From the NCBI GenBank assembly GCA_024278055.1, contig JAJRTY010000002.1, positions 1 through 64,000 on the forward strand: a stretch of DNA of 64,000 nucleotides, written 5' to 3'. Below, one piece after another: positions 14,566 through 62,167 of the stretch. The translations under genes and the position numbers were made by a program. The notes beneath the pieces are model-generated. The model was not told where the DNA came from and did not search any database. It worked only from the letters and a program-made list of their open reading frames with translations. The DNA comes from Alphaproteobacteria bacterium. GTDB taxonomy: Bacteria; Pseudomonadota; Alphaproteobacteria; Rhizobiales; JAJFHR01. Position 1 is the stretch's first letter. Every line of letters starts with the position of its first letter.

Positions 14566-16083
14566 TCATTTCTTTGTCGATATTTCCGGTGCGCACCCAA
14601 GCAACTTCGCCAAACTTGCCAGGCGGCGTTCTACAGTGTTGCCGATCAATGGTTGAAATTTTTTCGGCACCTTCATGGTGAGAATCCCATCATCAATTTT
14701 CAGGGAGATTTTCGGCAAAATCCCCGGCATGGCTCCAGACAATGAATAGGCCACACGCAAAGCAGCGCTGGTGATTTGCACCCGTTGCAAGGCCCTGTCA
14801 TCCAGCAGTTCTTTCAACCGCAAGCTCAGCTGAACATTTTTGTTAACTCCATGGCGATGAAACACGCTTAGGGCAATAAAGGCGCGACCGGCGTGGTCGA
14901 TATTTGAAAAAGCGGCATTGGCGATAATATTGAGGCTTTGTTCGCCGCGGTAATCAGAATGTGCGCGCCAGCCAATGTCGGCGACCAGACAGGCGGCATG
15001 ACGCAATCTGCGTTCAGCTTTGCTTTCTTCCAACCCGTGCTTTTTGAAGAGCTGATCTGTCCAGGCAACCAGCTCCTTCATATGATCATAAGAACGTGAG
15101 CGCAAAACAGCGAGATCATCGCAGGCTGCCAGCAAGGGGTCCTGACGGCGCTCTTTTTTACTCAATTTGGAATAAAGTACGCCTTCGCGCACGCCGTTAG
15201 ATGAAATCACCAGGTTTTTAATGTTGTTGCGTGCCAATATGGCATCAAGCACTTTTGCACCCAGAGGTAAGGTTTCAGCGCGGGCGGAGGATACATGTTC
15301 GATCTTACGCAAAGATGCCTGAGACTGAATGCTTATGACTTTATTGAGGTCACGGGCCTCGTCGGTGGGGATGACATAGTTGTTCAAAACATCTAACGGA
15401 TAGTCGTTTGCCACCATATGGACCCGGGCGAGATTACGCCAGGTGCCACCGATGGCGTAAAAGTCAAATTCCCCGTCATCGGGCATGAAAGCCACCCGGT
15501 CCAGTTGACGCTCTATAAATTCGGCGGCTTTTTCCATCGAACCACCGGCTATATCAGCCAACAGCAAAGGTCCAAGCGGCAGGGTGATGCCCTCACCTAT
15601 TTTGCCTCTGTCAATCTGCACCAGTTCAAGAGAACCACCGCCCAGATCGCCGGCCACACCGCAGGCATCCGGTATTGCCGACATCACACCGTAGGCTGCA
15701 TACTTGGCTTCTTTTTTCCCGGACAGGACCGTGACCGGAGTATCAAGGGCGCGGGCGGCAGCTTTGATAAATGCCGCGCCATTTTTAGCATCGCGCGCTG
15801 CGGCGGTGGCAATGGCATAGGTTTTTCTGACATCCAGGTGCCGGTTTAATATGTTAAACCGCGACAGTGTGGTCAGGGCATGGTCGATTGCAGATTGTGA
15901 CATCAGCCCCGTGGTGGCGATCCCACGGCCGAGCCCACACAGCACTTTTTCATTGTAAACCGGCGTTGGAGCGCGCCGGGCACCTTCATAGGCGACAAAG
16001 CGCACGGAGTTTGAACCGATATCAACGATGGATACCGGCTCAAGATCAGCAATGCGGCCGTCATAGCGCCACCGGTTATTCAA
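14566..16083 (-). CDS. ppx: Exopolyphosphatase (Ppx/GppA family)
   Basis: A 505-residue phosphatase of the ASKHA fold that removes terminal phosphate from polyphosphate (or pppGpp). The N-terminal phosphate-binding loop VDIGSNSVRFVAYEG (about 20-34) and the second loop GDLGGGSLELVQI (about 141-153) are intact. A C-terminal helical HD-like region (320-500) matches long Rhizobiales Ppx proteins. The start is TTG at 16083, with GAGG 7 bases upstream. It lies directly after ppk, with the ppk stop 10 bases before, so both genes are one operon for polyphosphate turnover. Confidence 0.92.
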   Translation of the reverse strand: MNNRWRYDGRIADLEPVSIVDIGSNSVRFVAYEGARRAPTPVYNEKVLCGLGRGIATTGLMSQSAIDHALTTLSRFNILNRHLDVRKTYAIATAAARDAKNGAAFIKAAARALDTPVTVLSGKKEAKYAAYGVMSAIPDACGVAGDLGGGSLELVQIDRGKIGEGITLPLGPLLLADIAGGSMEKAAEFIERQLDRVAFMPDDGEFDFYAIGGTWRNLARVHMVANDYPLDVLNNYVIPTDEARDLNKVISIQSQASLRKIEHVSSARAETLPLGAKVLDAILARNNIKNLVISSNGVREGVLYSKLSKKERRQDPLLAACDDLAVLRSRSYDHMKELVAWTDQLFKKHGLEESKAERRLRHAACLVADIGWRAHSDYRGEQSLNIIANAAFSNIDHAGRAFIALSVFHRHGVNKNVQLSLRLKELLDDRALQRVQITSAALRVAYSLSGAMPGILPKISLKIDDGILTMKVPKKFQPLIGNTVERRLASLAKLLGCAPEISTKK

Positions 16084-16092
16084 TTTTCAACC

Positions 16093-18351
16093 TCATAACT
16101 TGAATTTTAACGCAAGATCGGGGTTCGGGTGGCCTTTAGCCATGGAGCGGCCACGGCCCGACAGGCTAGGGTGAGTCATAAGATACTCATGAACATTAAA
16201 AGCCTCCTCACCTTGCTCAGGAGAGATTCGCTGCCAAGTACCATCGGGAAGCAATTGCCAGCTTTGCTGATTGTCCTTGAGATTTGCCACCATGATCTGG
16301 TCAAGCACCTGGGCATGAACGGTTTCATTTTCCATGGGTATCATCGCCTCGACCCGGCGGTCGAGATTTCGCTGCATCCAGTCGGCAGAGGAAATATAGA
16401 CCTTTGCCTGTGCCGACGGCAGCCCATAACCGGCTCCAAAACACGATATTCTTGAATGTTCCAGAAAACGCCCGACAATGCTTTTGACACGGATGTTTTC
16501 AGACAATCCGGGGACACCGGGGCGCAAGCAGCAAATGCCTCTGATAATGAGGTCAATCTGCACGCCGTTTTGACTGGCTTTATACAGCGCATCGATGATT
16601 TCCTGATCCACCAGCGCATTCATTTTTGCCCAGATCTGGGCAGGCCGTCCAGCTTTTGCGTGGTCGATCTCCTCATCAACATGGCGTAAAATTGTGGTTC
16701 TTGTATCGATCGGTGAAACGGCAATGCGTTCAAGCTTCTTGGGCGCGGCATATCCGGTGAGGTAATTAAATATTTTGGCGGCATCGCGACCAAAAGGTGG
16801 ATCACAGGTAAAATATGACAGGTCGGTGTATATGAGCGCATTGACCGGGTGATAATTGCCGGTGCCAAGGTGAACGTACGTTACCAGCCTTTCGCCTTCC
16901 CGGCGGACAACCTGGCTCAGCTTGACATGGGTCTTTAACTCGATAAAGCCAAACACGACCTTGACGCCTGCACGTTCCAGCCGGCGCGCCCATTCCAGGT
17001 TGGCGGCTTCATCAAAACGCGCTTTCAACTCAACCATGGCGGTAACCGAAATTCCGGCTTCAGCCGCTTCAATCAGGGTTTCGACAATGGGGGACTGATT
17101 GGAGGTGCGATACAGGGTTTGTTTTATCGCAACAACATCGCTGTCTGTGGCCGCCTGTTTTAAAAACTGCAACACCACATCAAATGTTTCATAAGGATGA
17201 TGCACGACAATGTCTTTTTGCCTGATGGCAGCAAAACAATCACCGCCATGCTGGCGAATACGCTCGGGAAAACGCGGGCTGAATTTGGCAAAAACCAGGT
17301 CGGGGCGGTCTTTGACAATAAGCTGGGAGAGATCGCTGAAACTGATCATCGGGCCCACCTCAATCAAATCGCGGGCGTTGACACCGAGTTCGGAAGTAAT
17401 GAACTGTTTCAGTTCCGCCCCCATGGAGCTGTCAACTTCGAGGCGGATAACACGACCAAGACGGCGGCGTTTAAGGGCGCTTTCAAAAAAGCGAACGAGG
17501 TCTTCTGCTTCATCTTCAATTTCAATGTCACTGTCGCGCAACAGTCGAAACGAGCCTTTGGCGACAATGCGATAGCGCGGAAACAGTTTTTGAATGAACA
17601 GAGCCAATACCTGTTCAAGCATGATAAAGCGGATTTTTATCCCGGTTTCTGTGTCCCCGGTGTGATTTTGTTCTGATGCCGGCAATCTGACAAAACGCCC
17701 GACCTGATGTGGAATAGGCAACAAGGCATTCATGACCTTGCCATCGCCCTTGCGTTTCAGCTTCAAAACAAGCGAAAAATCCTTATTGGCAATAAAGGGA
17801 AACGGATGGACCGGATCTATTGCCAGCGGTGTTAGGACCGGAAACAATTGTTCCAGAAAGTACACTTCCAGCCATTTGAGTTCTTGCGCACTCAAATCCT
17901 CTGTTTCGACCAGGGCAATACCGGCGCGGCTGAGGCGGGCGCGGATATCTGACCAGCACCGGCTTTGCGCTTCGGTTAATTCACTGACCGACGCATTAAT
18001 CTGCTCCAGTTGCTGGGCAACGCTGAGGCCATCCTGTGAGACTTCAGAGATTCCTGCGCGCAGCTGGCCTTTGAGACCAGCGACGCGTACCATAAAGAAT
18101 TCATCCAGATTGTCGGCAGAAATTGACAGGAAACGCAATCTTTCAAGCAAAGGGTGCTTTTCGTTGCCCGCTTCTTCCAGAACCCGGAAGTTGAAGTCCA
18201 GCCACGAAATCTCACGATTAAAATATCGTTTTGGATCTTCCCGTCCGATTGGCACAGCTTTGCCGGACACATCGAGATGCGCAGCTGGAGAATTATTGCT
18301 TGCGTCAGACACAAGTTTTATTCTGGCGGGATTTTTACCGGATACAGACAT
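16093..18351 (-). CDS. ppk: Polyphosphate kinase 1
   Basis: A 752-residue PPK1 that makes polyphosphate from ATP reversibly. It has the N-domain ([20 protein letters not shown], about residues 41-60), the head domain, and the two C-terminal catalytic domains. The autophosphorylated histidine lies in HLGTGNYHP; a second conserved histidine is in [10 protein letters not shown]. Length and motif order are those of typical PPK1. AGGA precedes the ATG. It is first in the ppk-ppx operon; in related genomes hdaA often precedes it, but here the upstream gene is a UPF0173 hydrolase. Confidence 0.94.
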
Positions 18352-18381: not shown

Positions 18382-19074
18382 CTAAACTTCTACACTCTCT
18401 CCTACCTGTGGCACCACCACATTTTGACCAGCCATTTCTGCAACAAAAGCATCGGCTGTTTGATCGAGCATATCAAACGTAGCATAATGACAGGGAAAGA
18501 CCGTGGAAAAACTGAAATAGCGTTTACAGGCCAGCGCTGCTGATTTTGCTCCCATGGTAAAGCGGTCACCAATGGGCACGATGCCGATATCAGGCGCATA
18601 CATCTCGTTAATCAGCGCCATATCGCCAAAAATATCCGTGTCACCCATGTGATAAAGTACCCGGCCTTCGTTCGTCTTGATAACAAGACCGCACGGATTG
18701 CCCAGATAGACCGAAGCATCGTTTACAACCGTGCCGGAAGAATGCAAAGCTTGGGTGAAGGTGACAGAAAAATCATCCTGCACCAGACACCCGCCGGTGT
18801 TGGCCGGATCAATATTTTCAACACCTTGCCCGTTCAAAAACATGCAGATTTCAAAGATTGCCACAAGTTTGGCGCCGGTCTTTTTACAGATATCAACTGT
18901 ATCGCCAATATGGTCATCATGACCATGGCTCAGCACAACATGGGTGCAGCCGGCGATGGCTTCTTCATATGACCCCTTAAATGCCGGGTTGGAAGTAATG
19001 AACGGATCTATCAAAATGACGCTTGCACCCGTTTCGATCCTGAAGGCTGAATGTCCCAACCAGATGATTTTCAT
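18382..19074 (-). CDS. UPF0173 family metal-dependent hydrolase
   Basis: A 230-residue metallo-beta-lactamase-fold protein. The metal motif is LSHGHDDHIGD (about 48-58), with later ligands in HSSGT and YHMGDTDIF. UPF0173 (YtkL-like) proteins have this compact single-domain form; substrates are unknown. A strong AGGAGAG ribosome binding site precedes the ATG. It sits 30 bases from ppk on the same strand and 27 bases after the cyclase gene, so the three may share transcription. Confidence 0.88.
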   Translation of the reverse strand: MKIIWLGHSAFRIETGASVILIDPFITSNPAFKGSYEEAIAGCTHVVLSHGHDDHIGDTVDICKKTGAKLVAIFEICMFLNGQGVENIDPANTGGCLVQDDFSVTFTQALHSSGTVVNDASVYLGNPCGLVIKTNEGRVLYHMGDTDIFGDMALINEMYAPDIGIVPIGDRFTMGAKSAALACKRYFSFSTVFPCHYATFDMLDQTADAFVAEMAGQNVVVPQVGESVEV

Positions 19075-19101: not shown

Positions 19102-20868
19102 TCATGTGAGTTCGCGGGCATGCATGACACACAGAATTGCCACCGGTTCGGGGATGCCGCGAACATCGACTTCTTCGGCTTCAAATTCGTCGATTTCAAG
19201 ACCGGCATATTGAGCCGCCTCCTGCGACAGGATCATTTGTACGCCTTTTTCCTTGGTCAGGGCTTCCAGCCTGGCCGCGGTGTTTACGGTTGTGCCGATA
19301 ACAGTGAGGCTGGCACTTTCACGATGGCCAATGCGCCCCATCACCAGAGGACCGGCATGAAGGCCGATGCCGATTTTTAACGGTGCTTCAAGTTCGCTTG
19401 CCAGCGTTTTGTTGACGTGTTCCAGAACCCGATCAATTTTTGCTGCCGCCGCCAATGCATGGCGCATGCCGGGTACCGGCCCTTCGTTGCGGCCAAAGAT
19501 TACCATCAGACCGTCACCAAGATATTTATCAATCCAGCCATCTTCCTGCTTTATGGCTTCACCAAAAGCTTCAAACAGAGCGTTGAGAATAAACACCACA
19601 TCATAGGGCAGTTTTTCCGCACTCATGCTGGTAAAGCCGCGCACGTCTATAAACATTACAGCGACGTTGCGTTCAACGCCTTCATCTTCTTCCGAATTTG
19701 CGTCAGCTGTCTGCATTTTGGTTTTCGGCCACACCAGTTGCACCAGATCAAGATTTTTTTCCGGCCGTATCTGACAGGCCAGGCGCACATCCGGTGCAGC
19801 TTTGATGCGGACAAGGGTTGCCGCTTCATCCTTTCCCGGTTGAGCCAGTCCCTCGGCACCGGTGAGAATACGCACCCGGCAAGTGGAACACCGCGCGCGA
19901 CCGCCGCATTGAGAGGCATGGGGAATGTTGTTCGCACGGCTTATTTCAAGCAATGTCGGGCCTTTTGGTACGCGGAGTTTCTTGACTGATTTGTAATTTA
20001 TTTCAACATGTTCCCCGAATTTTCTAATGAGAACCCTCATGCCAAATACACTTAATGTGCTGAACAGGAAAATGTAGAAGACCAATTGGCTGTGATCTAC
20101 CAGCATTTCCGTTGTCAAAGTATCAATCCAGCTTTTTTCCGCCTCTGCACCCTCACCTGCTGTTGCTGTCTTGGCTATATCGCCACCATATGCATTTGGA
20201 GCTGGTGGAGCCGGCGCTTTTTTTGCGGTTTCAGCCTGAGCCTCGGCCTGGGCCTGCAACTCAGCAACAAAATTTGCAATGACCTTTTCCTTGGCCGCCG
20301 GTCCGGCAACGCTGAAACCGGCGATGGCCAGAATTGGTATGGCGATGGCCACGGCAAATAACGGCATAAATGCCCGCCTGTACCATTGATTGACGCGCAG
20401 CCAGTAATGCAGCCCGATGGTAGAATGAACCCAGACAACCAGCAAAAGAATGGATTGGTCCCAGCTTAAGTCCGGCCAGATATTGGCCAGTACGTAGAGA
20501 TAATCATCATTGGTACCTTTGAGCAGATTGGCTCCGCGTGTATTGGCAATATGGGGAATGAGCAATATAGGTATAGACACCCCAAGAAGGATGCGGAGCC
20601 AGTCCCAAAGCGGCAATTTGAGCGTGGAACGCATGGCCAGTCGATATAAAACCAACCCCATATGGGTAAGCAGGGCTGCACCCAGAACTATCGAACCCAA
20701 AATTGAGCGGGTAAAAAACTGACGAAACTCCTGGAAAGATAACATCAAATCCAGCGAGACCAGGCCCAGCGCGTGATTGAGAAAGTGAAAAAGGACGAAT
20801 GTGAAAAGAATTAACCCGGATATGATCTGCAAACGCTGCGGCCACGACTGGCCAAAATCAACAGGCAT
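19102..20868 (-). CDS. Membrane class III adenylate/guanylate cyclase with [2Fe-2S] ferredoxin domain
   Basis: A 588-residue three-part protein. Residues 1-285 hold several membrane helices (for example LQIISGLILFTFVLFHFLNH) and an Ala/Pro-rich insert. Residues 290-385 are a plant-type ferredoxin domain with CGGRARCSTC (C-X5-C-X2-C) and a fourth Cys in RLACQI. Residues 400-588 are the cyclase: metal-binding Asp in FIDVRGF and LGDGLM, purine-selecting Lys in WIDKYLGD, and transition-state Asn/Arg in VNTAARLE. The usual Asp before VN is Thr (IGTTVN), the class IIIb pattern, seen in bicarbonate-responsive adenylate cyclases. GGAGCC precedes the chosen start at 20868. Redox control of cAMP synthesis is inferred. 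Confidence 0.9.
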   Translation of the reverse strand: MPVDFGQSWPQRLQIISGLILFTFVLFHFLNHALGLVSLDLMLSFQEFRQFFTRSILGSIVLGAALLTHMGLVLYRLAMRSTLKLPLWDWLRILLGVSIPILLIPHIANTRGANLLKGTNDDYLYVLANIWPDLSWDQSILLLVVWVHSTIGLHYWLRVNQWYRRAFMPLFAVAIAIPILAIAGFSVAGPAAKEKVIANFVAELQAQAEAQAETAKKAPAPPAPNAYGGDIAKTATAGEGAEAEKSWIDTLTTEMLVDHSQLVFYIFLFSTLSVFGMRVLIRKFGEHVEINYKSVKKLRVPKGPTLLEISRANNIPHASQCGGRARCSTCRVRILTGAEGLAQPGKDEAATLVRIKAAPDVRLACQIRPEKNLDLVQLVWPKTKMQTADANSEEDEGVERNVAVMFIDVRGFTSMSAEKLPYDVVFILNALFEAFGEAIKQEDGWIDKYLGDGLMVIFGRNEGPVPGMRHALAAAAKIDRVLEHVNKTLASELEAPLKIGIGLHAGPLVMGRIGHRESASLTVIGTTVNTAARLEALTKEKGVQMILSQEAAQYAGLEIDEFEAEEVDVRGIPEPVAILCVMHARELT

Positions 20869-20941
20869 AGAAAGGCTCCGGCAATAGATTGCTACCATCA
20901 TGGCCTTTAAACAAAAACAAGGAAAGAAAAATCAAATCGCC

Positions 20942-21736
20942 TCATTCGCAGATGCGGTAATTCCAGCCTTTGCCACGTTTGGCATAATCAAGATGAAAAT
21001 GGGTCTTGTGGGCCTCATTGGACCCCGGCCCCAGCACCGTTGTGAAATACCCGCACGAAGAAATACGCAGCGCCATTAACATGCGTATCTGTTGAGGTGG
21101 GCCATCAATGACAGTGGACACCCTGACTGTCTGGCGCGACCCCAGACCAAAGCCGGTAATATCAATGGCATTGCCAAAGGCATGCTCACTGATTTTTCCG
21201 TTTTTGCGGTTGTTGCGGTTGCGGCACTGATAGCCGGGGCCGGTGACAACGGATATGAGGGGGCTTTGGGTAAAGCTTTTAACCACGGGCGCTGCCACAT
21301 CAGACAACCAGGTGGACAGCCGCAAGGCAAAGCTGCAACTGAGCAAGGGCTTTGCTCTTAAATCAATTGCCCCATCGCTGGAGGCTACCGATGCCAACCG
21401 CACCGGATTGGATACCTGGCATCGATTGTCGCCGACTACCGGTTCTTCTATCGTGAATTCAGCGCCAAGGCGAGTTAGTGCGGCCATACAGTTTTTGAAT
21501 TCAACGCCAACCTCTCCTGCAACCTTCTCCTGCCGTATCGATTGTGACAGGGGTTGTTGCGCAATTTCTGCAGACGGCTTCGGGCGAGGTACCGGCACCG
21601 CCTCGCGCACACCGTCGCCAGCATGAACCTTCGGCACAAATCCGATGATAAAGAGAAAACTCGATGCAACAAATAGTTTCAACATGATCAATTTTGCAAG
21701 TCTGTGAAATTTAAAAAGCGACCTTCTTTCAAGCAT
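20942..21736 (-). CDS. Extensin family protein (M15-like D,D-peptidase fold), exported
   Basis: A 264-residue exported protein. The N-terminus has basic residues, a hydrophobic core (LFVASSFLFIIGFV) and a cleavage site after VHA near residue 39, then a Pro-rich linker (PVPRPKP). The extensin-like C-terminal domain contains SEHAFGNAIDITGF and THFHLD, the H-x6-D and H-x-H zinc ligands also used by M15 and MepA-type peptidoglycan D,D-endopeptidases. Four to six cysteines may form disulfides in the periplasm. A second possible start (21685) still leaves a signal peptide. A murein hydrolase role is inferred from the motif. Confidence 0.85.
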   Translation of the reverse strand: MLERRSLFKFHRLAKLIMLKLFVASSFLFIIGFVPKVHAGDGVREAVPVPRPKPSAEIAQQPLSQSIRQEKVAGEVGVEFKNCMAALTRLGAEFTIEEPVVGDNRCQVSNPVRLASVASSDGAIDLRAKPLLSCSFALRLSTWLSDVAAPVVKSFTQSPLISVVTGPGYQCRNRNNRKNGKISEHAFGNAIDITGFGLGSRQTVRVSTVIDGPPQQIRMLMALRISSCGYFTTVLGPGSNEAHKTHFHLDYAKRGKGWNYRICE

Positions 21737-22863: not shown

Positions 22864-24141
22864 TCAATCACTCACCTGCCATTTTAAAATTGCGATCTCG
22901 GCCTGCCGCCCTTTTACGACTATCGTATTTTCATCGTTAAAATCGTTGCGCTTGGCCAAACCAATAGTTTTTTTGTCAGCTATGATTTCACCGCCGGATG
23001 CATTTGAGCATAGTCGGGCTGCAACATTTACTGTATCGCCGATTATTGTAAAATCTATCCGATCTCCAGAACCTAATAATCCAGCTACAGCGGGGCCAGA
23101 ATATAAACCAATTCCGACTGTAAGAGAGTGTTCTGAGTGAGATAGTTTTTTCTGAATAGAAATTGCAGCACGCGTCGCCCGCTCCCAGCGGTCTTCACCT
23201 TCAAAATATGCAAAAACAGCATCACCGACAAATTTATCTATATCGCCTCCTTCACTTTCAATTTCCTGCACCTGAATATCAATTATATTGTTCAACGTTC
23301 TGAAAACTTTTTCAGGGGACTGGTTTTCAGAAAATGCTGTAAACCCACGAATGTCTGAATAGAAAACAGTGATGTCGATTTCCATTTCACTTTTCCCATG
23401 CGAGGATTGATTTTCCTGCATGGCGGAAACTGCTCGACGTGAAACAAGTTTTTCGAGTCTTTTTCGCATGGAAATTATAACTGATGTACGCTTTTCAATT
23501 TCCCGCTGAGCAGATCTAACAATGGGAAAAAACAATAAAGTTAAAACACCCAAGGTGCCGAAAAGAGATAAAATAATTGGAAAAAACAACCCTTTTAGCA
23601 TGAATGTATATTCGCCATGGACAGACTCATACAATTCAAAAACAGCGGCAATTTTCCCCTGTTGGTAGTAAGGAATATAAAGCTCTAATACTGTTGATCC
23701 GTCTTTTTCCTGTTTGGTGACAATAGATGAGGTGCCTTGCTCGATAACGGCCCTGAGCGCTTGATTGTTTTCTAAACTGCCAATTTCCTGAACTCTGTGT
23801 GAGTAAAGAATCTTTTTACTAAGGGCGTAAACTTTCAGGCCAATCAGTTTGTATTCAAACTGCTCTTTGGAGAACGCCTCTGATAACTTAGCGAGATCGG
23901 CGTTGGAAATGGGTTGCCCTTTTAGGGTTTGTTGCCAAATAAGAGGCCATTGGGATGAGATGTCATTTGCAATGTTATCCGTGACTTTTATTGCTCGCTC
24001 CAAATAGATCTTTTCCGAGCTTTTTTGAATAACAAAACCAACCAGTGCAATGGTCAATGCAAAAAAGAAAAGCAAAGCAGGAAACAAGCGAAAGTAGAAT
24101 TTTTTTGCCAGTGGGTAGGATTGTTCCAGATGATCAGACAT
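22864..24141 (-). CDS. Membrane adenylate cyclase, class IIIa type
   Basis: A 425-residue sensor cyclase. Two membrane helices (about residues 17-39 and 182-205) flank a periplasmic sensor of about 145 residues. A short coiled linker leads to the class III catalytic domain (about 245-425). Metal-binding Asp are in FYSDIRGFT and FVGDAVF; the purine-selecting pair is Lys in DIDKFVGD and Asp in IGDTVNVAARL, the standard adenylate cyclase set. It is followed by a 3' gap and a run of unassigned sequence to the SRPBCC gene. The DNA is more AT-rich than its neighbours. The signal sensed is unknown. Confidence 0.88.
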   Translation of the reverse strand: MSDHLEQSYPLAKKFYFRLFPALLFFFALTIALVGFVIQKSSEKIYLERAIKVTDNIANDISSQWPLIWQQTLKGQPISNADLAKLSEAFSKEQFEYKLIGLKVYALSKKILYSHRVQEIGSLENNQALRAVIEQGTSSIVTKQEKDGSTVLELYIPYYQQGKIAAVFELYESVHGEYTFMLKGLFFPIILSLFGTLGVLTLLFFPIVRSAQREIEKRTSVIISMRKRLEKLVSRRAVSAMQENQSSHGKSEMEIDITVFYSDIRGFTAFSENQSPEKVFRTLNNIIDIQVQEIESEGGDIDKFVGDAVFAYFEGEDRWERATRAAISIQKKLSHSEHSLTVGIGLYSGPAVAGLLGSGDRIDFTIIGDTVNVAARLCSNASGGEIIADKKTIGLAKRNDFNDENTIVVKGRQAEIAILKWQVSD

Positions 24142-60770: not shown

Positions 60771-61856
60771 ATGAGCAGTATAGCAATGAGTGGAGAGATT
60801 GTCAGCATAGAGGAATACTCAACCCGGACAAAATGCACCAGAAGTTGTGATATCGCCATCATTGGTGCGGGACCGGTTGGCCTTTTTGCCGTGTTTCAGG
60901 CTGGTCTGCTGGGGTTGAAATGCATCCTTGTAGATGCGCTCGAGCGGCCCGGTGGACAGTGCAGTGAACTCTACCCGGAAAAACCCATATATGACATTCC
61001 GGCCTATCCGGTAATCAGCGGTCAGGAACTCACCAACAAATTGATGGCACAGATCAAACCGTTTGCACCTGAGTTTCTGTATTCCCAGCAAGTTGCCAGC
61101 CTGTCCAAAACCAGCGACGGCAGTTTTGAACTGGTCACCACCCAGGGAATTACAATTTCAGCGCCGGCCGTGTTTATCGCCGCCGGCGCTGGCAGCTTTG
61201 TGCCGCGCAAGCCTAAGGTTGAGGGTCTTGAGGCGTTCGAGGAAAAATCCTTCTTCTATGCCGTGCGCAACCGCAACACTTTTGTTGATCGCGATGTGGT
61301 GATCTTTGGTGGCGGTGACAGTGCGCTTGACTGGACACTGGACCTCCTGCCGCAGGTAAAGTCGCTCACGCTGGTTCATCGCCGTGACAAGTTTCGCGCC
61401 GCACCTGCTTCGATTGCGGCAATGCGCAAGGCAGTTGCAGATAAGCGTCTGCGTCTGGTGTTGGGCCAGCTGGATGGGCTTGCCGGGATGGATGGCGAGT
61501 TGGAAACAATATCCGTCAAAACATCTGACGGCAGCGTTGAGGATATCAAAGCCGACCGGGCGCTGGCATTCTTTGGCCTTAATATCGAATTGGGACCGAT
61601 AGCTGAATGGGGCCTTAATCTCAACTCCAAACTGATTGAGGTTGACACCGAAAGGTTTGAGACATCGACACCGGGGATTTTCGCCATTGGCGATATCAAC
61701 TGGTATCCCGGCAAGCTCAAACTCATTTTATCGGGCTTTCACGAAAGCGCTCTGGCGGCCCAGGCCGCCTTTAAAATCGCCCGGCCCGATGAAAAGCTGA
61801 TATTTCGCTACACCACTTCATCCAGTGACCTGCACGAAAAACTTGGAGTGGCCTGA
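60771..61856 (+). CDS. Ferredoxin-NADP reductase, thioredoxin-reductase type
   Basis: A 361-residue two-dinucleotide-domain flavoprotein. FAD site is IAIIGAGPVGLFAVFQAG (about 28-45), NADPH site VIFGGGDSALDWTL (about 177-190), and the terminal FAD block GIFAIGDINWYPGKLKLI. It lacks the CxxC disulfide of thioredoxin reductase, so it is a ferredoxin (FNR2) reductase. The next gene, one base overlapping, encodes a ferredoxin, and sulfite reductase follows, so it supplies electrons for sulfite reduction. ATG at 60771 or 60786 are both possible starts. Confidence 0.92.
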   Translation: MSSIAMSGEIVSIEEYSTRTKCTRSCDIAIIGAGPVGLFAVFQAGLLGLKCILVDALERPGGQCSELYPEKPIYDIPAYPVISGQELTNKLMAQIKPFAPEFLYSQQVASLSKTSDGSFELVTTQGITISAPAVFIAAGAGSFVPRKPKVEGLEAFEEKSFFYAVRNRNTFVDRDVVIFGGGDSALDWTLDLLPQVKSLTLVHRRDKFRAAPASIAAMRKAVADKRLRLVLGQLDGLAGMDGELETISVKTSDGSVEDIKADRALAFFGLNIELGPIAEWGLNLNSKLIEVDTERFETSTPGIFAIGDINWYPGKLKLILSGFHESALAAQAAFKIARPDEKLIFRYTTSSSDLHEKLGVA

Positions 61857-62167
61857 TGGGATTTATTCACGTGACAGACAGGCACGGCAAGACCCACGAC
61901 CTTGAAGCGGTTGCAGGCTGGCGGGTGATGGAGATTATCCGCGAACATGGTTTGCCGATTGAAGCGGTGTGCGGCGGGGCGTGCGAATGTGCCACCTGTC
62001 ATGTCCATGTGGCACCTGAGTGGCAGGAAAAGCTCTATCCGGCCCGCGAAGACGAAGAAGACATGCTCGATGAGCTGCCCGAAATCAGCCAGACATCACG
62101 TCTCAGCTGCCAGATCATCTGGCAGGAAAACCTCAATGGTCTGCAATTGACACTGGCAGGTGGATAG
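61856..62167 (+). CDS. [2Fe-2S] ferredoxin (adrenodoxin-like)
   Basis: A 103-residue ferredoxin. The cluster ligands are C39, C45 and C48 in CGGACECATC (plus an extra C43) and C85 in RLSCQI, the C-X5-C-X2-C...C pattern of ISC/adrenodoxin-type ferredoxins. An acidic stretch (EDEEDMLDELPE) provides partner docking. It overlaps the reductase stop by one base and precedes cysG immediately, so it likely passes electrons from the reductase to CysI. Confidence 0.94.
   Translation: MGFIHVTDRHGKTHDLEAVAGWRVMEIIREHGLPIEAVCGGACECATCHVHVAPEWQEKLYPAREDEEDMLDELPEISQTSRLSCQIIWQENLNGLQLTLAGG

Follow-up and report, generated by a model that had tools for sequence, protein, structure and literature searches.

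A CyaC-type class IIIb adenylate cyclase with a putative di-heme membrane anchor and a ferredoxin domain in a Hyphomicrobiales draft genome

Introduction

CyaC of the plant symbiont Sinorhizobium meliloti (SMc01818), the subject of an experimental paper by Wissig et al. (2019, Mol Microbiol 112:16), is among the described systems closest to the gene analysed here. In the parts of two articles that deal with this enzyme, its membrane anchor is described as holding two heme b that are oxidised or reduced by ubiquinone, with consequences for the activity of the cyclase; the enzyme is also reported there to contain a [2Fe-2S] cluster and to be activated once quinones have oxidised it (PMC10463352, PMC9552081). 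A 2016 eLife survey includes, as its cluster 1, 30 class IIIb cyclases in which a ferredoxin lies between the membrane part and the cyclase; according to the section on this cluster, the anchor has four intramembrane His and resembles the cytochrome b of fumarate reductase/succinate dehydrogenase, and one example comes from Rhodopseudomonas palustris (PMC4821796).

Here we describe a gene in a 64,000-nucleotide stretch of a Hyphomicrobiales genome (positions 1 to 64,000 of contig JAJRTY010000002.1, assembly GCA_024278055.1; referred to below as the window). Its product, the query, is a member of the already described CyaC family of membrane-bound class IIIb adenylate cyclases. It has the same ferredoxin, six-helix membrane anchor and four intramembrane His as cluster 1, and within what the relevant section of that survey covers there is no essential difference between the two.

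Gene and domain organization

The open frame of the gene (minus strand, 19102-20901) also allows an ATG at 20901, giving a product of 599 aa (P0001). The start at 20868 is preferred because the congener G001 has an 87% identical gene whose homology to the query starts at the corresponding Met, and because the upstream ATG in G001 is out of frame by our own count on the printed sequence. A preliminary description of this DNA had placed the gene at 19102-20868; the frame is confirmed and the start is backed by the congener. The domain order of the product, a 6TM anchor followed by Fer2 and then a class III cyclase (Table 1), is the CyaC-type layout. The same description had recognized membrane helices, a ferredoxin and a cyclase, correctly in view of six hydrophobic segments (residues 30-48, 67-85, 97-115, 150-168, 181-199 and 274-292) and of the Pfam matches to Fer2 and Guanylate_cyc, and the cysteine pattern that it reported is present as C332-X5-C338-X2-C341-X34-C376. 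What it overlooked is the key sensory element, the four intramembrane histidines of the anchor.

Table 1. Features of the CyaC-type gene and its neighbours in the window; residue numbers of the query follow the 599-aa frame.
Feature	Residues	Position	Strand	Basis or remark
CyaC-type gene		19102..20868	minus	588 aa from preferred ATG at 20868
Six-helix membrane anchor	18-295	20017..20850	minus	hydropathy, AlphaFold model, fold match
Putative heme ligand, helix 1	His39	20785..20787	minus	invariant 82/82
Putative heme ligand, helix 2	His80	20662..20664	minus	invariant 82/82
Putative heme ligand, helix 3	His117	20551..20553	minus	invariant 82/82
Putative heme ligand, helix 4	His159	20425..20427	minus	invariant 82/82
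Putative [2Fe-2S] ferredoxin domain, Fer2	308-381	19759..19980	minus	Pfam E 3.3e-9, above cut-off
Class III nucleotide cyclase, Guanylate_cyc	411-582	19156..19671	minus	Pfam E 1.8e-20, above cut-off
True class IIIb position, 7 before catalytic Asn	T533	19303..19305	minus	sAC and Spirulina CyaC comparison
Thr of IGTTVN, 3 before catalytic Asn	T537	19291..19293	minus	not class signature
Upstream neighbour, Extensin-like_C protein		20942..21736	minus	Pfam; 73-bp gap to preferred cyclase start
Downstream neighbour, metal-dependent hydrolase, beta-lactamase fold (NF001911)		18382..19074	minus	27-bp gap
Further downstream gene		16093-18351	minus	30-bp gap to hydrolase
Exopolyphosphatase, Ppx		14566-16083	minus	Pfam; 9-bp gap to 16093-18351

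Relatives and family membership

The CyaC family is common in the Hyphomicrobiales, with matches at E <= 1e-50 in 81 of 297 sampled genomes. Full-length rows were obtained from 79 of these 81; G015, where the gene is truncated by a contig end, and G288, whose protein is without a cyclase, were excluded. The alignment has 82 rows: the query, one sequence from each of 78 further genomes in the order, the second copies L115 and L116, and S. meliloti CyaC (L119); all were picked by their likeness to the query, and the conservation figures given here are conditional on that choice.

Aligned with the product of the cyaC-annotated gene of S. meliloti CP090106.1, the query is about 38% identical, which is only moderate, across 94% of its length. 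Asn491 and Arg495 of that protein align with N540 and R544 of the query; since they match the pair mutated in the work on S. meliloti CyaC, as given in the part of that article concerned with the mutants (PMC10463352), they confirm the CP090106.1 gene as the studied CyaC. The two proteins have in common the three-part layout, the tetra-His anchor, the four Cys, the Lys/Thr purine pair and the Asn/Arg pair, whereas S. meliloti CyaC differs in having an Asp three residues before the catalytic Asn (-3) and a shorter loop joining helices 5 and 6.

A phylogeny of the cyclase domain, proposed as a check in the preliminary description, was built by a quick method with a midpoint root from 63 of the 82 CyaC-type rows and 23 other cyclases, 19 close or degenerate rows having been removed by choice before the tree was built. 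The query and 62 other CyaC-type domains share one side of a branch with an SH-aLRT support of 92, which groups the query with the CyaC family and not with the other class III cyclases of the order, and within this set it falls in a 13-row clade (SH-aLRT 99).

Membrane anchor and ferredoxin domain

The four histidines of the anchor are distributed one to each of the first four predicted membrane segments. An AlphaFold model of the isolated anchor (305 residues) has a pLDDT of 89.7; in the model an Ala/Pro-rich stretch at about 230-255, between helices 5 and 6, is of low confidence. VIA-align matched this model to chain C of the quinol:fumarate reductases of Desulfovibrio gigas (Z 13.8, rmsd 3.4, 179 residues) and Wolinella (Z 13.4, rmsd 3.8, 192 residues) and to Chloroflexus succinate dehydrogenase (Z 12.0), a Z near 13 being, by the tool's own note, within reach of unrelated helical bundles. 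Foldseek E-values were weak, 0.25 at best (2bs4_C). A Pfam scan of the isolated anchor gave no match, nor did PDB sequences searched with a profile of the aligned anchors, and the link to di-heme proteins therefore rests on the fold comparison, the histidine pattern and the literature. All of the top six fold matches belong to one family, and the best other fold is cytochrome b561 with a Z of only 6.7; this single-family result, the gap in score below it and the histidines are the basis on which the model is matched to the di-heme anchors. In fold and extent the query anchor is like the two fumarate reductase subunits (Z 13-14 over 179-192 residues), but it is only 14-15% identical to them and is fused to a signalling output, while theirs serves a respiratory enzyme. 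The anchor probably holds two b-type hemes through His39, His80, His117 and His159, like the di-heme succinate and fumarate:quinone reductases.

The ferredoxin domain is no less conserved, with Cys332, Cys338, Cys341 and Cys376 invariant in 82 of 82 rows. This invariance would also suit a protein in which oxygen, NO or a cytosolic reductant is sensed primarily by the ferredoxin, while the anchor, whether or not it carries heme, serves just as a tether; that the soluble relatives L113 and L114 combine Fer2 and cyclase without a membrane anchor points the same way. We nevertheless regard this arrangement as quite unlikely, because the intramembrane histidines are just as invariant, in a fold matching di-heme quinone-reactive anchors, and because S. 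meliloti CyaC is reported, in the parts of the two articles that treat its regulation, to respond via heme and quinone (PMC10463352, PMC9552081).

Catalytic domain and class assignment

In class IIIb cyclases a Thr (or Ser) replaces the purine-contacting Asp. The place of this residue can be read from human sAC, in which, according to two articles, Thr405 contacts adenine and Asn412 and Arg416 form the catalytic pair (PMC12250328, PMC12867704); the class position thus lies seven residues before the catalytic Asn (-7). In printed alignments Spirulina CyaC and Pseudomonas CyaB both have Thr at -7, and at -3 they have P and R, respectively. In the query the -7 residue is T533, a Thr as expected of class IIIb, and across the family it is T in 73 of 82 rows and S in 4 of 82, the S. 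meliloti residue being T484. An example of the non-IIIb state is L045, a cyclase of another kind with Asp at -7 (TYDVWG). Mapping also identified D419 and D463 (metals), K459, which together with T533 contacts adenine, and N540 and R544 (transition state), all of which are kept; the Thr at -7 with K459 fits an adenylate cyclase.

The preliminary description had likewise called the protein class IIIb, on the grounds of a Thr in IGTTVN "at the position normally Asp". The class stands, with T533 as its marker; the residue cited does not. That residue, T537, sits at -3, a site that varies and does not define the class. We rejected it as a marker, given P in Spirulina CyaC, R in Pseudomonas CyaB and Asp in 64 of the 82 rows; a Thr there is found in just 2 of 82, the query species and its congener. 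In none of the rows of the 13-row clade is the -3 residue Asp; it is T, R, K, E, A, N, P or Q instead, so the substitution seems to reflect local drift at a variable position. The corrected residue matters for any sequence-based prediction of a bicarbonate response.

A structural search with the full-length model returned the catalytic domain of the class IIIb Spirulina CyaC (1wc0-1wc6) first, with a Z of 26.0 and an rmsd of 1.6 over 186 residues, consistent with class IIIb. That domain shares the Thr at -7 with the query but only 30% identity, and the crystallised construct is without a ferredoxin or di-heme anchor. In spite of the common gene name, Spirulina CyaC falls outside the CyaC family as used here, and its full domain layout is, we assume, different from that of the query.

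Possible control by bicarbonate

The preliminary description went further and proposed a cAMP enzyme under joint control of redox state and inorganic carbon, with bicarbonate/CO2 acting on the class IIIb domain. T533 makes the catalytic domain class IIIb, and two of the best-matching Spirulina CyaC structures were determined with bicarbonate present (1wc5, 1wc6). We consider the proposal doubtful, however, since T537, the residue cited in its support, is not the class signature, and since no bicarbonate-specific residue can be separated from the ordinary catalytic residues in the homodimer. The residues of human sAC that bind bicarbonate are Lys95 and Arg176. By spacing and pseudo-symmetry their counterparts in a homodimer would be the usual Lys that binds substrate and the usual Arg of catalysis, so the presence of Lys and Arg is not diagnostic for bicarbonate. 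Nor does sequence class guarantee a response: some sAC proteins are reported to be under the control of pH and not of bicarbonate (PMC12867704). Bicarbonate control of the query is thus possible at the level of the class and not specifically indicated by its residues. That the query integrates the redox state of the quinone pool, through the di-heme anchor and [2Fe-2S] domain, with CO2/bicarbonate, through the class IIIb dimer, seems to us improbable. If such dual sensing were true, cAMP would report how electron supply and respired carbon are balanced, and the same would hold for S. meliloti CyaC, which shares the Lys/Thr pair.

Atypical relatives

In eight of the 82 CyaC-type proteins (L102, L103, L105, L106, L110, L111, L112 and L115) the Asp, Asn or Arg of the active site is gone. 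These eight keep all four His and all four Cys and span four of the family groups coded in our search; G256 has both an intact copy (L053) and a decayed one (L115). The invariance of the redox ligands where the cyclase active site has decayed suggests that these proteins have a sensor role apart from cAMP synthesis. By extension, the query itself could sense redox state and yet make no cAMP, as a scaffold or a protein with a dead active site, but it retains D419, D463, K459, T533, N540 and R544, and we hold this to be very improbable.

In 11 of the 82 rows (L027, L075, L080, L088, L092, L094, L098, L099, L100, L101 and L108) Lys459 is replaced by Gln, mostly with Thr kept at -7; the substrate preference of these cyclases is uncertain.

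Other relatives depart from the three-part layout. L113:1490-2818 (G230) is a soluble fusion without an anchor, in which Pfam identifies Fer2, a class III cyclase and a Rieske [2Fe-2S] domain, so that two iron-sulfur domains flank one cyclase, and L114 (G071) looks by sequence like the same fusion. L118:1347-2945 (G288; the same gene is found in L133) has a CyaC-like tetra-His anchor and Fer2 without a cyclase. The C-terminal tail, about 150 aa long, is without a Pfam match and may resemble the tails of anti-sigma factors; the genes downstream look, by eye, like those of an HlyD-type protein and a peptidase-containing exporter.

Genomic context

The query gene is the second in a run of five same-strand genes (extensin-like, cyclase, hydrolase, 16093-18351 and Ppx; gaps in Table 1), of which 16093-18351 is by its likeness a putative polyphosphate kinase. 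The order of the five is kept in one of 19 relatives' regions (three of them on contigs <= 7.2 kb), that of the congener G001, and we accordingly rejected a conserved functional link of the cyclase to its neighbours. Orthologues of the hydrolase in G002, G033, G010 and G230 are without such neighbours in the stretches examined, three of which are short.

Near the cyclase gene, the S. meliloti record has a regulator of the TetR type that is annotated rutR and is a candidate for CycR. A BLAST search of the 19 relatives' regions for a TetR (rutR)-like gene near cyaC found none (best E 0.20), and the downstream partner may therefore differ from that of S. meliloti. The genome also has eight stretches that match cNMP_binding and include at least one CRP-type regulator, which provides cAMP with possible receptors.

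Nine stretches of the genome match the cyclase family, two being adjacent pieces of one locus. A second class III cyclase is encoded in the window at 22864-24141 on the minus strand, roughly 2 kb away from the query gene. Its N-terminal membrane/sensor part has no Pfam match; the protein has Asp at -3 and Thr at -7, the latter placing it in class IIIb as well, and nothing in G001 matches it at the equivalent position. On the plus strand at 60771-62167, a pyridine nucleotide-disulphide oxidoreductase adjoins a free-standing 103-aa [2Fe-2S] ferredoxin, which looks like a ferredoxin reductase-ferredoxin pair.

Proposed mechanism and significance

We propose, with a probability of about 0.87, that the query is a CyaC-type class IIIb adenylate cyclase whose di-heme anchor senses the quinone pool and whose [2Fe-2S] domain couples this signal to the cyclase, so that cAMP follows redox state. 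The anchor would equilibrate with the quinone pool, oxidised quinone oxidising the hemes, and its redox state would be passed to, or shared with, the cytosolic [2Fe-2S] domain just before the catalytic domain. This domain may then change the pairing of the two cyclase domains such that the dimer makes more cAMP, which would act on a CRP-type regulator. What the sequence and the model show is the order of the domains, the invariant ligands, the fold match of the anchor, the intact catalytic residues and a purine pair (Lys, Thr) of the adenylate type. We infer the heme and cluster content of the query, its response to quinones and the direction of that response (activation by oxidised quinone) from S. 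meliloti CyaC; the order of electron transfer and the way in which the ferredoxin domain would move the cyclase are purely conjectural. The redox tuning put forward in the preliminary description is well supported by homology to S. meliloti CyaC, for which the published accounts locate the redox input in a di-heme-B anchor exchanging electrons with quinones, plus a [2Fe-2S] cluster (PMC10463352, PMC9552081); that description saw only the ferredoxin.

The query is an ordinary but well-formed member of the described CyaC family, and the relatives, with their degenerate cyclases and intact ligands, the ferredoxin-cyclase-Rieske fusion and the sensor module without a cyclase, offer more than the query does. 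As very probably a sensor of the redox state of the respiratory chain, the query would bring a cAMP switch that senses redox state to a Hyphomicrobiales genome represented here only by a draft assembly.
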